Part shown: positions 56,885-62,082 of the stretch, piece after piece
How the letters are laid out: every line of letters begins with the position of its first letter
Numbering within the stretch: position 1 is the stretch's first letter
From: an uncultured Cytophagales bacterium
GTDB taxonomy: Bacteria > Bacteroidota > Bacteroidia > Cytophagales > Thermoflexibacteraceae
Assembly (NCBI GenBank): GCA_938039675.1
Contig: CALHUI010000015.1
Location: 62,001-126,000 of the forward strand
DNA: 64,000 nucleotides
Direction: 5' to 3'
The notes under the pieces: generated by a model
Told to the model about the DNA's origin: nothing
The model's input: only the letters and a program-made list of their open reading frames with translations
Database searches by the model: none
Program-made: the position numbers and the translations under genes

Positions 56885-57823
56885 CTATTTTTGTTCAGTA
56901 ACGAAGGTTATGTTGCGCCGAAGCCCTGTCAGTTTGGTGCGTTTAACGGCAGATTTTTTGAACAACTCATGGAAGAGTTCCTCTGTAAGTTCTTGCCAAT
57001 CAGAGGTTTTCATGTGTTCCAGTTGCGGGTGCGGCTCAAATGCAGGTTCGCGGTGCGGGGCAGCAAATCGGTTCCACGGGCACACATCTTGGCACACATC
57101 GCAACCAAAAATCCAATTGTCCATTTGGCCGGCAAATTCATCGGGTATCTTGTCTTTCAGTTCAATGGTTAGATAAGAGATACATTTACTTCCGTCCACC
57201 ATGTAAGGCTCAACAATTGCATCGGTCGGGCAGGCATCTATGCAGCGTGTGCAAGTGCCGCAATAATCTTTAGTAGGTGCATCGGGTTCTAAATCAAGGT
57301 CAATAATCAGTTCGGCAATAAAGAAAAAACTGCCCAGTTTTCTGTTGATAATATTGGTGTGCTTACCAAGCCATCCTGCGCCGCTGCGGGCTGCCCAAGC
57401 CTTATCCATCACAGGGGCAGAATCTACAAAAACACGCCCGTCGATATCACCGATTTCCTGACGCAAAGCCTCTAATAACGACTTTAACTTATCTTTTACA
57501 ACAAAATGATAATCAGTTCCATAGGCGTATTTAGATATTTTCAGTTCATCGTCTTGGTGTAGTATTTTTTTGGCGGGATAATAGTTATAAAGCAACGATA
57601 CTACCGACTTTGCCCCGGGCACCAGCAGGCGCGGGTCTAAACGTTTGTCAAAATGATTTTCCATGTAACTCATCTGCCCGTGCATGTGTCGATTGAGCCA
57701 GTTTTCCAGCCGCGGCGCTTCTTCTTCCAAAAAAGTTGCAGCCGATATACTGCAAAAATCAAAGCCCAATTCTGCTGCCTTTTGTTTGACTATATTTGTA
57801 TGTCGGATGCGTTGAAGATTCAT
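56885..57823 (-). CDS. queG: Epoxyqueuosine reductase
   Basis: The 312-residue cobalamin- and [4Fe-4S]-dependent enzyme performs the last step of queuosine biosynthesis in tRNA. It carries the cobalamin-proximal YGTDYH and [19 protein letters not shown] segments (Asp134) and two ferredoxin clusters ([12 protein letters not shown] starting at 188, and [11 protein letters not shown]). The length is that of the short Bacteroidota form without the C-terminal HEAT repeats. It is divergent from the ECF sigma factor gene. The downstream BatD gene follows at 29 bases. Confidence 0.93.
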
Positions 57824-57897
57824 CTTGGCAGGTTTTGGACAAAATTATTACAAATTTTTTTCCTTTGGGGGTTACTTATCTCTGTCTAAACGTATTA

Positions 57898-58464
57898 ATG
57901 AAAGCAGCAATGAAAAAAACTGCCTTGTTTAACGAAGAGAGTTTTGTCAAAGCATTTCGCGAAAATAACGAGGCGGTCATGAGCAAGATATACAAGCTTT
58001 ATTTTCCGATGGTGTTACACTTTGTGCTGGTCAATAGCGGAACGGAAGATGAAGCCAAAGATATTTATCAGGAAGCATTTATCGTGCTTTACGAAAGTTT
58101 GCAACGACCTGATTTTCAGTTGCGATGCAGTATTAAAACTTTTCTGTATTCGGTCAGCCGCAACCATTGGCTGAAACGATTGCAGGCAAAGAAAATCAAA
58201 ACTGACCTGAAAGACGTGGAAGAATTTATTCCTTTTGTAGAGGATAGCGTCAGTATTGAAAACGAAGCACGCTTAGCAACGATAGAGGCAGCCATGCAGC
58301 GGTTGGGTGAACCGTGTCGTACTATTTTGGAGGATTACTACCTCAACAAAATGAGCATGACAGACATTGCTGAAAAAATGGGCTATACGAATGCAGACAA
58401 TGCCAAAACACAGAAATACAAGTGTTTTAACCGGTTGAAGAAACTAATAAAAGAACTCAAATGA
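57898..58464 (+). CDS. ECF sigma factor
   Basis: From the ATG at 57898 the protein has 188 residues. Sigma region 2 includes MSKIYKLYFPMVLHFVLVNS, EDEAKDIYQEAFIVLYESL and FLYSVSRNHWLKRLQ. Region 4 includes CRTILEDYYLNKMSMTDIAE, KMGYTN and QKYKCFNRLKKLIKEL. Earlier in-frame codons overlap the divergent queG gene. It directs RNA polymerase to a small regulon not identified here. The stop overlaps the start of the membrane protease gene by four bases, the usual coupling of a sigma factor to its anti-sigma. Confidence 0.9.
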   Translation: MKAAMKKTALFNEESFVKAFRENNEAVMSKIYKLYFPMVLHFVLVNSGTEDEAKDIYQEAFIVLYESLQRPDFQLRCSIKTFLYSVSRNHWLKRLQAKKIKTDLKDVEEFIPFVEDSVSIENEARLATIEAAMQRLGEPCRTILEDYYLNKMSMTDIAEKMGYTNADNAKTQKYKCFNRLKKLIKELK

Positions 58465-59579
58465 ATATTGAAGAGCAACTCCGACTGTGGGATAAAATAG
58501 AACGCTATGTTGAAGGCAAGATGAAAACAGAGGAGTACCTTGCCTTTGAGAAAGAAATTGCTTCCAATTCTGAGTTAGCACAGCAAATTGCTGACTATCA
58601 GGCATTGCGCACATCTCTGGACTTGCTCAAAGAACGTCGGCAACTCCGTGCCAAACTCGACCGGTTCCATGCCGAAATAGCCCCCGTTGAACAGCAGGCG
58701 GCACTGAAAGTGTATAAAAATAAGGACACTTGGCGCACTTACACTTCCAAATATTTACCGACAATTGCCGTAGCTGCAAGCGTTGCGCTGATTACGGTAC
58801 TGAGTACACTTTTTACGCTTGGCTACCTAAAAAGCATGGAGCGCAGCCAGCAAAGCAATCTCAAACTGTTGCGCCGCGAGTTAGATCAAATCAAACGCGA
58901 TATAAAGAGTACCAAAGACACGCTGAATCGGGCTATCCCGCGGGCTATGGCAGCATCGCAGCGATTTGAAGGTACTTGCTTTGCCATTTCGGAGAAAGGG
59001 TACTTAATCACCAGCTATCATTTGGTGGCAAAAGCCGATTCTGTTTTCATAGAATCTACCACTCAGCCCGGATTGCGCTATAAGGTAGAATTAGCCTTTG
59101 GCGATGAACGAACAGACCTTGCCGTATTAAAAGTAGCGGACAGCACTTTCCATGAATTTGGCAGAATTCCTTACACACTGAAAAAAGGAACAGTAGATTT
59201 GGGCGAAGAAATCTTTACGCTGGCATATCCGAAAAATGATATTGTGTACGGAGAAGGCAGTATAAGTGCTCGCACGGGTTTTGAGGGCGACTCTGTCGCT
59301 TATCAAATCTCTATTCCGGTGAACCCGGGAAACAGCGGAGGCCCCGTGTTTGACACCAATGGCAACCTTATCGGCGTGGTTTCGGGTAAGCTCTCAGGTG
59401 CTGAGGGTGTGGCTTTTGCCCTTAAATCATCGGTCATCTGGCGCACTTTGAAAGACAGTGTGCCTAACAAACTGGATAAGATGTTTGACCTGCCAAAGCA
59501 AAGCAAACTTGCAGGCCAAAAGCGGACAGTACAACTGAAAAAAATACAGGATTACGTTTTCCAAGTGAAAGTCTATTAA
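58461..59579 (+). CDS. Membrane protein with anti-sigma-like N terminus and trypsin-like protease domain
   Basis: The 372-residue protein has an acidic helical cytoplasmic part (1-95, MNIEEQLRLWDKIERYVEGK, SNSELAQQIADYQALRTSLD) of the kind seen in anti-sigma factors. A single membrane helix (about 98-123) and a coiled coil (about 125-165) follow. The S1C/DegS-like protease domain has His187 (TSYHLVAK), Asp219 (RTDLAVL) and Ser292 (GNSGGPVFDTNG). No PDZ domain is present. The gene is ATGA-coupled to the sigma factor. I infer a fused anti-sigma and extracytoplasmic protease; the N terminus is not assigned to a named family. Confidence 0.84.
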   Translation: MNIEEQLRLWDKIERYVEGKMKTEEYLAFEKEIASNSELAQQIADYQALRTSLDLLKERRQLRAKLDRFHAEIAPVEQQAALKVYKNKDTWRTYTSKYLPTIAVAASVALITVLSTLFTLGYLKSMERSQQSNLKLLRRELDQIKRDIKSTKDTLNRAIPRAMAASQRFEGTCFAISEKGYLITSYHLVAKADSVFIESTTQPGLRYKVELAFGDERTDLAVLKVADSTFHEFGRIPYTLKKGTVDLGEEIFTLAYPKNDIVYGEGSISARTGFEGDSVAYQISIPVNPGNSGGPVFDTNGNLIGVVSGKLSGAEGVAFALKSSVIWRTLKDSVPNKLDKMFDLPKQSKLAGQKRTVQLKKIQDYVFQVKVY

Positions 59580-59586
59580 ACCCGCT

Positions 59587-62082
59587 TTATACGGGGTCAA
59601 CATTGACAACGACCTTCAATTCTTTGAAGGTCTTGTTTTTTATGAGATTGTCCATAGTAGTGCCGATGTATGTTTTCACTGCTTTAAGTGAAGTACCTTG
59701 TCGCTCAATTTTGACGAGCACGTTGCGCAAATATTGATTGCGGATGCGCTCAATGGGAGGGGTTTGCGGCCCTAACACGCGGTTGCCTCCTAAACCGTTG
59801 CGCAATGCCACAGCAAGGTTCTGTGCCGCTTTTTCCACCTCTTCCGCCGACTCTCCTTTAACGGTCAGTTCTATCAGTCTGGTAAAAGGCGGGTAGTGGT
59901 AATGCTTACGCTGTGGCAGTTCATCTCTGTAAAAGTCTTCAAAATGATGAGCTGCCACATGCTCGAGTATCGGGTGGTGCGGGTTTCTCGTTTGAATGAT
60001 AACCGTTCCTTGTGCGGCTTTTCTGCCTGCTCTTCCTGCTACTTGCGTCAATATCTGAAATACGCGCTCATGTGCCCTGAAATCGGGATAGCACAAGGCA
60101 CGGTCTATGTCAAACACTACTACCAGTGCTACATGGTCAAAATCGAGCCCCTTAGTAACCATTTGCGTGCCTACTAATATGTCAATTTTATGGGCAGAAA
60201 AATCCTCAATGATATTTTGCAGGCCATACTTTCCGCGCGTAGTATCTAAGTCCATGCGCTGCACCACAGCATCGGGAAAAAGTGATTTAACGGTATCCTC
60301 TATTTTTTCGGTACCATACCCCACTGTCTTGATTTCATGCGAGCCGCACTGTCGGCAGGTGTGCGGCGGATTTTCTCTGTAACCGCAATAGTGGCAGCGC
60401 AATTCGTTGCTGTGCATGTGAAACGTGAGGCTGACAGCGCAATTTTGGCAATGAGGCACCCAGTTGCAAGTCTGGCAGGAGAGATGAGGTGCGTAGCCAC
60501 GCCGATTTTGAAACAAAATCACCTGCTTTTTTGCCTCGATTGTTGCACGTATGGCTTGTAATGTGGCCGGTGCAAATTCGCCTATCATGCGCTTGGCTTT
60601 GCTTTCATTTTTTATATTAACAAACTGAATATCAGGAAGTTGTGTATCGTTGAACCGCTGTGTTAGCTGCACATAGCCGTAGCGTTTTTCGGCTGCATGA
60701 TAAAAACTCTCGAGCGATGGCGTAGCTGTTCCCAGTAGTACTTTTGCGCCGTGCATATGCGCCAACATCATAGCTGCATCGCGGGCGTGGTAACGCGGTG
60801 CAGGGTCGTATTGCTTATAAGAACTGTCATGCTCCTCATCAATAATAATCAAACCTAAATGACTGAAAGGCAGGAAGATAGAGGAGCGAACGCCAATAAT
60901 TACATCAAAACGCCCGTCCATTATGCCATACCATACTTCCACCCGTTCATTGTCTGAGAATCGGGAATGGTAAACGCCCAACCGATTGCCGAAAACACGC
61001 CGCAAACGGGCGACAATTTGCGTTGTCAAAGCAATTTCTGGCAGCAGCAGCAGCACTTGATTGCCTGACTGCAACATTTGGTCTATCAAGTGTATGTAGA
61101 GTTCGGTTTTACCCGAGCCTGTAACGCCGTGCAGTAATACAGTCTGTTTTTCGTCCCATAATGAGGTGATTTTTTGCAGTGCATTGCTTTGTGCATCAGT
61201 GAGTTGCGGGAGCTGAGAGTCGCCTGTCGGTAACTCTTCTAACCGCGAAACAATTGTTTCAAACTCTTCCAGTACTTCATTTTTCAGGAGTGTCTTGTAT
61301 GCACTTTCCGACAGATTGGCAGTAAGCAGCGTGCTTTTGGGAATGCCGTTGAGTTGCTGCTCCGGTTCGGCCTGCCAAGGAACCAGCGATAAATACCTGA
61401 GAATCAAGGCTTCTTGTTTGGTGTGTTTAGAAAGCCTTTCTAACAGTTTGCTCAGGGAAGCCTCATTTTTACTGCGCCAGTTGGCATGCAATCGAACTTT
61501 TTTGATGGTTTTAGGCTTATATTTTTCTTTTAGTTCCTCGAAAATCAGAATACATTCTTTCTGCAAAAGCGATTTTAACAGACTGAAAATCTGTTTTTTA
61601 CCCGAAATTTTAACTGCCTCTTCATAGCACAAGGTCTCATTTTGCCGCAGTGCATCCAGCAGCAGCAGTTCCTTTTCGCTGAAATCGTCAGGGTTGAGGT
61701 TATCTGCCGCAAAAGCCGGATGGAGTTGAATGCGCGATTCGCTGCTGAGTTTCAGCCCTGCAGGTACGGCCACGTTCATTACTTCGCCCCATGTGCAGAG
61801 GTAGTAGTCGGATACCCATTCCCAAAATTGCAACTGTAAGGGGACGGTAATGGGCTGAAGGTCTATCAAATCCAGAATCATTTTGGTTTGATAGTCGCGT
61901 GGCGGGTTTTCGTGGATGCGGATAACGATGCCTGTCAGGATGCGCTTTTGTCCGAATTGTACAACTACTCTTGTGCCCCGGGTAATGGTATCGTTCAAAG
62001 CAAGGGGCACTCGGTAGGTAAAAGTGCCTTTAAGCGGGAGCGGGAGAAGAATATCTGCAAAAAAAGTCTGACGCATTGACAA
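59587..62082 (-). CDS. priA: Primosomal protein N' (PriA helicase)
   Basis: The 831-residue replication-restart helicase carries the PriA N-terminal DNA-binding part (LPLPLKGTFTYRVP), Walker A (LHGVTGSGKTELY), the Walker B DEEH (LIIIDEEHDSSYKQYDP) and helicase motifs (GTATPSLESF; AGRAGRK). A two-zinc CxxC cluster (CQTCNWVPHCQNCAVSLTF; CHYCGY; CRQCGS) precedes motif IV. All functional regions look intact. It is convergent with the sigma/protease operon, with only 7 bases between stops, and lies downstream of hpf on the same strand. Confidence 0.95.
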   Translation of the reverse strand: MSMRQTFFADILLPLPLKGTFTYRVPLALNDTITRGTRVVVQFGQKRILTGIVIRIHENPPRDYQTKMILDLIDLQPITVPLQLQFWEWVSDYYLCTWGEVMNVAVPAGLKLSSESRIQLHPAFAADNLNPDDFSEKELLLLDALRQNETLCYEEAVKISGKKQIFSLLKSLLQKECILIFEELKEKYKPKTIKKVRLHANWRSKNEASLSKLLERLSKHTKQEALILRYLSLVPWQAEPEQQLNGIPKSTLLTANLSESAYKTLLKNEVLEEFETIVSRLEELPTGDSQLPQLTDAQSNALQKITSLWDEKQTVLLHGVTGSGKTELYIHLIDQMLQSGNQVLLLLPEIALTTQIVARLRRVFGNRLGVYHSRFSDNERVEVWYGIMDGRFDVIIGVRSSIFLPFSHLGLIIIDEEHDSSYKQYDPAPRYHARDAAMMLAHMHGAKVLLGTATPSLESFYHAAEKRYGYVQLTQRFNDTQLPDIQFVNIKNESKAKRMIGEFAPATLQAIRATIEAKKQVILFQNRRGYAPHLSCQTCNWVPHCQNCAVSLTFHMHSNELRCHYCGYRENPPHTCRQCGSHEIKTVGYGTEKIEDTVKSLFPDAVVQRMDLDTTRGKYGLQNIIEDFSAHKIDILVGTQMVTKGLDFDHVALVVVFDIDRALCYPDFRAHERVFQILTQVAGRAGRKAAQGTVIIQTRNPHHPILEHVAAHHFEDFYRDELPQRKHYHYPPFTRLIELTVKGESAEEVEKAAQNLAVALRNGLGGNRVLGPQTPPIERIRNQYLRNVLVKIERQGTSLKAVKTYIGTTMDNLIKNKTFKELKVVVNVDPV

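Follow-up and report, generated by a model that had tools for sequence, protein, structure and literature searches.

A conserved Bacteroidota protein joining a putative class I-like anti-sigma domain to a PDZ-free S1C protease behind an ECF sigma factor gene

Introduction

In the sigma-E system of E. coli, the anti-sigma factor RseA and the protease DegS are separate proteins, and DegS bears a PDZ sensor. The locus described here raises the question of whether the two activities can reside in a single polypeptide. The window, by which we mean the whole stretch of 64,000 nucleotides analyzed (positions 62,001 to 126,000 of contig CALHUI010000015.1, an uncultured Cytophagales bacterium), contains a gene that an earlier note had read as an anti-sigma-like protein fused to a periplasmic trypsin-type protease and coupled to an ECF sigma factor. 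We examined the gene pair, its relatives within Bacteroidota, the promoter motif preceding it, and the genes found behind the same motif elsewhere.

Gene organization of the locus

The features on which the following sections draw are all on the forward strand of the window.

57870..57897 (G000:C15:119870-119897), +, predicted own-sigma promoter GGTTAC-N16-GTATTA, a conserved motif
57910..58464, +, ECF sigma factor gene (TIGR02937 and PF04542 matches), with an alternative ATG at 57898
58461..58464, +, ATGA stop/start overlap of the sigma gene with the fusion gene, read directly
58461..59579, +, anti-sigma/S1C protease fusion gene, 372 aa, ATG start
58461..58745, +, class I-like anti-sigma domain, residues 1-95 (structure model, fold matches and reuse)
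58755..58826, +, transmembrane (TM) helix, about residues 99-122 (hydropathy and structure model)
58827..58964, +, periplasmic stem, residues 123-168, predicted helical and the least conserved of all blocks
58965..59459, +, S1C (HtrA-like) protease domain, residues 169-333 (PF13365; DegS fold)
59019..59021, +, His187 codon, same in 34/34 copies
59115..59117, +, Asp219 codon, same in 34/34 copies
59334..59336, +, Ser292 codon, same in 34/34 copies
59511..59576, +, conserved C-terminal tail, residues 351-372 (R..Q.KK..DYVF.VKVY; alignment conservation)
59611..59632, +, terminator-like hairpin 3' of the fusion gene, a 9-pair stem followed by a T run

The upstream frame matched the ECF model TIGR02937 with an E-value of 1.7e-18 (66.8 bits; cut-off 42.9) and PF04542 with an E-value of 1.4e-7. 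Its start is probably the ATG at 57910 and not that of the longer open frame, since the -10-like box of the conserved promoter ends at 57897, directly before the ATG at 57898. The hairpin downstream of the fusion gene is weak evidence for a terminator, as shuffled sequences gave 2.5 sites of this kind (sd 1.8) compared with the four observed. No sigma-70-type promoter and no Rfam match were found in 57700-59700, and no tRNA in the whole window. Altogether, the layout claimed previously, namely an ATGA overlap with an ECF sigma factor gene, a helical N-terminal part, a single membrane helix and an S1C protease with a complete triad, was right.

Protease domain, membrane helix, stem and tail

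PF13365 (Trypsin_2) spans residues 171-306 with an E-value of 6e-21 (76.1 bits; cut-off 27.6). The top fold match of the protease part of the structure model was DegS-deltaPDZ (Z 12.6, rmsd 3.5, 166 residues aligned), and the remaining fold matches listed were likewise HtrA/Deg-type proteases. The triad of His187, Asp219 and Ser292 is identical across all 34 aligned copies, the window copy counted. No PDZ model of Pfam matched the window protein at E up to 1, in agreement with the absence of this domain asserted before, and residues 339-372 are all that remains C-terminal to the Deg-aligned part. This remainder includes the tail, of which the mean top-residue frequency (0.64) is comparable with that of residues 169-310 (0.62).

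Hydropathy peaked at 2.27 over residues 102-120, the model helix covers residues 99-119, and a single TM-like peak was found in all of the 34 copies. The stem was predicted to be helical, so that the coiled coil proposed in the earlier note is plausible, albeit with pLDDT mostly below 50 in the full-length model. We noticed no conserved cleavage motif in the stem by eye. The full-length model was poor (pLDDT 60), the worst parts being the cytoplasmic linker, the TM helix and the stem; the C-terminal tail was thus given no position in the structure.

The protease was also found without the N-domain in seven proteins (L039 and L226-L231), with no sigma gene within the fetched DNA. A similar C-terminal tail was recognized by eye in each of them but L229, the frame of which is broken off. 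As the protease occurs without the N-domain and, in the fetched DNA, without a sigma gene, the protease module of the fusion looks recruited.

Distribution of the fusion and its linkage to the sigma gene

Relatives were sought within Bacteroidota, using a sample of 395 genomes. Twenty-nine genomes possessed a relative, with an E-value of 5.4e-48 or better, and were clustered in a few families: the genome of the window itself, all three sampled of family f3, two of the three of f4, all 10 of f5 and all 13 of f6. None was detected in the eight genomes of family f2, and the best match in the other genomes sampled never reached an E-value of 1e-42. Those weaker matches that were listed begin at residue 123 or beyond, that is, in the stem or the protease. 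The genome of the window encodes one fusion copy, and its four further matches cover the protease domain only. Five more relatives came from named MAGs, two of which are Bernardetiaceae (82% and 68% identity). As far as these genomes tell, the fusion is standard equipment of several Bacteroidota families.

A same-strand ECF sigma gene was found at -20 to +94 bases from the fusion gene in 34 of the 35 loci, the 35th (L039) being the protease-only relative without a sigma gene. The 34 copies include that of the window (L006) and a near-identical pair (L003 and L004). The earlier note suggested looking for the same fusion beside ECF genes in other Bacteroidota; it lies beside one in 34/34 copies, that of the window included. 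The layout is not a matter of chance, as the sigma gene is kept upstream in every copy examined. The fusion of the N-domain and the protease in one chain is real and conserved.

The N-domain and its probable assignment as an anti-sigma domain

The AlphaFold2 model of the N-domain comprises helices at residues 3-18, 23-35 and 37-98 (mean pLDDT 84). The N-terminal part had been described as acidic, but overall it is neutral to slightly acidic, with a net charge of -3 over residues 1-60 and 0 over residues 1-95. A Foldseek search of the N-domain against PDB returned 16 weak rows, seven of which were anti-sigma chains with E-values from 5.4 to 9.9; RslA (3hug) accounted for six of these and RskA (4nqw) for one. 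When 17 chains were given to VIA-align, 3hug RslA ranked first (Z 5.2, rmsd 3.9, 56/56 residues). RskA (4nqw) came next at Z 4.2 with an rmsd of 10.7, level with helical rows of unrelated proteins at 3.7. The RslA and RskA scores are supportive but weak and in themselves not decisive, lying below the level where helical bundles become distinctive.

Within residues 1-119 of the window protein, Pfam gave nothing above cut-off, and the NCBIfam model NF052375 ("anti-sigma factor") scored 21.7 bits against a cut-off of 100. We extended the comparison to 31 N-domains taken from alignment A1 (31 rows; L004, L029 and L033 omitted). At E up to 0.1, NF052375 matched seven of them (best 7e-5), PRK13920 ("putative anti-sigmaE") two, and Pfam zf-HC2 six (best 9.5e-4), and unrelated families matched about equally, e.g., Hemerythrin in 4/31 with a best E-value of 0.0025. 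Thus, the proposed comparison with anti-sigma profiles yielded weak matches in a minority of relatives, while the window protein stayed below cut-off. A FecR-type anti-sigma factor was considered and rejected, as Pfam listed no FecR model for the window protein with an E-value of up to 1. When the N-domain profile was compared with PDB sequences, no anti-sigma chain was found in the best 60 of 127 matches; nearly all of those 60 were nuclear-receptor chains (best E-value 0.017), which we regard as chance. As no anti-sigma family model scored above its cut-off, the domain is termed "class I-like" here and not filed as a class I (ASDI-type) member.

The reuse of the N-domain is more informative on its role. 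The N-domain profile was searched in 22 of the 29 system-positive genomes, and nine of the 11 best rows from outside the fusion family were examined (one of the other two lies in a 714-residue frame). All nine proteins (L217-L225) share the same N-domain and a TM-like segment followed by another C-terminal part, TPR-like by eye, and all nine are encoded directly behind an ECF gene. From this recurrence, the N-domain behaves as what we take to be a swappable anti-sigma module. Altogether, comparison supports the anti-sigma identity, as the earlier note supposed: the conserved linkage and the reuse behind other ECF genes speak for it, while the fold match to RslA/RskA is weak. Two fusion copies (L029 and L033) have no helices 1-2 of the N-domain and retain the sigma gene, the sigma promoter and a divergent lipoprotein promoter.

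A conserved promoter motif upstream of the sigma gene

Of the 34 loci, 33 have the pattern GGTTAC-N15/16-GnATTA, in which one position is relaxed, ahead of the sigma gene, compared with a mean of 0.005 and a maximum of one in shuffled sequences. The test covered 240 nt upstream of the conserved part of the sigma gene, and L038 had no pattern in the 240 nt tested. The strict GTATTA form precedes the sigma gene in 31 of the 34 loci. In most of the relatives seen in family f5, a GTG start lies 3-4 nt past the -10-like box, and a leaderless mRNA is suggested for these relatives. The promoter was found in none of the nine stretches tested before the ECF genes of the other N-domain proteins in system-positive genomes.

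Genes behind the promoter motif elsewhere in the genomes

In the genome of the window, the strict pattern matched three times, namely at the sigma promoter, before a small lipoprotein gene (C13:43810), and at one site preceding neither. Across 28 system-positive genomes, 124 matches were found against 62 of the reversed pattern, while 28 system-negative genomes of the same class, chosen by hand, gave 14 against 52. The promoter pattern is thus rarer than its reversed control in the latter genomes, which may reflect avoidance or sequence bias. None of the eight system-negative matches inspected, out of 14, precedes a sigma or lipoprotein gene.

Of the 124 matches, all of which were classified, 25 lie ahead of the sigma gene, 31 ahead of a gene for a small lipoprotein and five ahead of a CBM48-like gene, while 63 precede none of these; a false lipobox (G099:C20) was manually reassigned to the last class. 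The 31 lipoprotein sites correspond to 30 distinct proteins in 20 genomes, one being a second site of the same gene. These lipoproteins are of low complexity with 36-59 mature residues, and A, D, K, S, T and V make up on average 81% of the residues past the cysteine. None of the six lipoproteins scanned had a Pfam family above cut-off, and the same was true of all eight target proteins scanned. Thirty-two sites start with GGTTACCTTT, 26 of them before lipoproteins and three before the CBM48-like gene. Under the same loose rule, a lipoprotein-like frame followed 2.7% of 12,594 other positions, and one of like make-up 0.43%; these control positions skipped the lipoprotein-rich loci L081 and L083-L087 as well as the vicinity of promoters, and some of the loci overlap. 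In several genomes, tandem lipoprotein copies adjoin the sigma gene.

The five CBM48-like targets (L089, L090, L092, L100 and L117) are AMPK/CBM48-like proteins of 96 aa behind the promoter in family f6 genomes (PF16561, E-value 1.6e-5, 25.5 bits vs 26.8). Separately, two loci (L088 and L091) encode proteins of about 140 aa with a signal-peptide-like start, from which the promoter is +177 to +185 nt away; the one of this type scanned had no Pfam match. Further targets, chance or composition effects may lie behind the 63 matches left unexplained. As these target-less matches likewise outnumber the 14 found in all negative genomes, base composition may contribute. Both the promoter motif and the target set are new predictions.

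Proposed mechanism and alternative explanations

We lean, with modest confidence, towards an autoregulated two-gene envelope-stress switch in which a site-1 protease forms part of the anti-sigma factor; in other respects, the order of the components parallels sigma-E signaling. The gene layout, its conservation, the linkage, the promoter motif and the genes behind that motif are read directly from the sequences, from which we infer that the sigma factor uses the promoter and that a signal, self-cleavage and a site-2 step govern its release. Through the GGTTAC...GTATTA promoter, the sigma factor would drive its own operon and, elsewhere in the genome, genes encoding short low-complexity lipoproteins. 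Residues 1-95 would hold it on the cytoplasmic face of the membrane with the S1C protease on the periplasmic side, quiet while stress is absent. A periplasmic signal, perhaps a misfolded protein or a mis-sorted lipoprotein, would activate the protease; as there is no PDZ domain, we propose that this signal reaches the active-site cleft directly. The activated protease would then cut the stem, either within its own chain or in a neighboring copy, replacing a separate site-1 protease such as DegS, and a site-2 protease together with cytoplasmic proteases would complete the release. The genome of the window encodes an M50 (site-2 type) protease (E-value 1.4e-60), and self-processing has a precedent in an HtrA-like protease that severs its own membrane anchor, as described in part of PMC5359297. 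Stem cleavage, whether by the same chain or by a neighboring one, is favored because a triad that is kept in 34/34 copies and tethered to its presumed substrate would otherwise be hard to explain. Release of the sigma factor by self-cleavage or by cleavage of partners, as raised in the earlier note, would be compatible with all of the observations. For the lipoproteins, a protective role is conceivable, as is one as substrates or feedback ligands.

The linkage and the N-domain evidence would equally fit an anti-sigma factor in which the protease is a sensor or effector rather than a self-cleaving site-1 protease. The protease part would bind or degrade misfolded periplasmic proteins, and a change in its shape or load would loosen the cytoplasmic domain, or another protease would cut the anti-sigma factor. 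The poorly conserved stem, in which no common motif was noticed, is in line with this possibility, as are the proteins that have the protease and, mostly, a similar tail (L039 and L226-L231), for which the fetched DNA showed no sigma gene and from which the protease appears able to work as a general one. Being one protein, such a sensor would nevertheless have to pass its signal through a single helix, and the membrane-spanning anti-sigma factors known so far usually signal via proteolysis. We consider this version, the strongest of the alternatives, rather unlikely. A further departure from the favored reading denies the anti-sigma role itself: the gene would encode an HtrA-like quality-control protease anchored in the membrane, the only tie of which to the sigma factor is co-transcription. 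The two copies devoid of N-domain helices 1-2 (L029 and L033) and the weak scores of the N-domain against anti-sigma models are consistent with this idea, which we nevertheless judge quite improbable given the RslA-like fold rows, the immediate ECF linkage in 34/34 copies, and the nine of nine loci in which the N-domain sits behind an ECF gene even with a different periplasmic part.

The promoter side of the switch can be doubted independently. The GGTTAC-N-GTATTA sites might belong to another regulator, in which case the lipoprotein genes would not be targets of this sigma factor, which would agree with the 63 of 124 matches that have no evident target. The excess over the reversed pattern is, however, confined to the genomes holding the system, the promoter also precedes lipoprotein genes at a distance from the sigma gene, including one in the genome of the window, and it was not seen before nine other ECF genes in system-positive genomes, so that assignment to another regulator strikes us as very improbable. 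Returning to the two-gene switch, we tentatively advance a stronger form, with a chance slightly short of even: an active site-1 protease housed in the anti-sigma chain, free of PDZ and with a regulon largely of tiny disordered lipoproteins, would constitute a core envelope-stress system in several families of Bacteroidota. In this PDZ-free form, the regulon lipoproteins may be substrates or feedback ligands of the protease.

Comparison with known systems

RseA and DegS share with the fusion an ECF sigma factor, a membrane-spanning anti-sigma factor and a periplasmic S1C protease (for DegS, PMC8103513). On the other hand, the fusion is one chain, free of PDZ, and has a conserved C-terminal tail. 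The S1C fold and the triad are present; membership in DegS/HtrA (S1C with PDZ) was nevertheless rejected, as the C-terminal PDZ domain is absent. The likeness to the Dma anti-sigma family extends to the Bacteroidota host, an N-terminal anti-sigma domain, one TM helix, a long periplasmic part and an adjoining sigma gene, as far as the portions of PMC13088901 and PMC9308784 available to us describe it. According to the same portions, Dma ends in an outer-membrane beta-barrel, whereas the fusion ends in a protease; with the beta-barrel missing and a protease in its place, the fusion was not assigned to Dma.

RsgI of Clostridium thermocellum and Bacillus is cut outside the membrane first and then by a site-2 protease, the first cut of C. 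thermocellum RsgI being autocleavage, according to parts of PMC12203970 and PMC10202637. In these accounts, RsgI has its own kind of periplasmic autocleavage domain, unlike the trypsin-type protease of the fusion, and is thus a precedent for an anti-sigma factor performing the first cut on itself, albeit with another kind of domain. The name RsgI was absent from the Pfam and NCBIfam rows of the window protein.

RslA and RskA (PDB 3hug and 4nqw) are the best anti-sigma fold matches of the N-domain, weak ones and without a significant sequence match; neither is known to have a protease domain. MarP spans the membrane several times and is not known to have a sigma partner. The membrane S1C model of MarP (NCBIfam NF033740) covers residues 110-332 of the fusion with 62.8 bits, and membership was rejected, as this score is far under the 250-bit cut-off and the fusion has one TM-like peak.

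Among the titles and beginnings of abstracts listed in a literature search, none described an anti-sigma factor fused to a trypsin-type protease, which is not a claim of absence from print, and no such fusion was found in the portions of the ECF reviews PMC8103513 and PMC8999054 available to us. The fusion is best filed under membrane-spanning anti-sigma signaling, as a new variant.

Significance

A class I anti-sigma gene lies nearby for only 6% of Bacteroidetes ECF sigma factors, which leaves open how most of them are regulated, according to the portion of PMC7406223 available to us. For one such sigma factor, the fusion family provides a partner that is conserved, along with a promoter motif and putative target genes, which together make the pathway directly testable. 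If self-cleavage is true, two proteins of the textbook sigma-E cascade would be merged into one, and an S1C protease would sense without PDZ.
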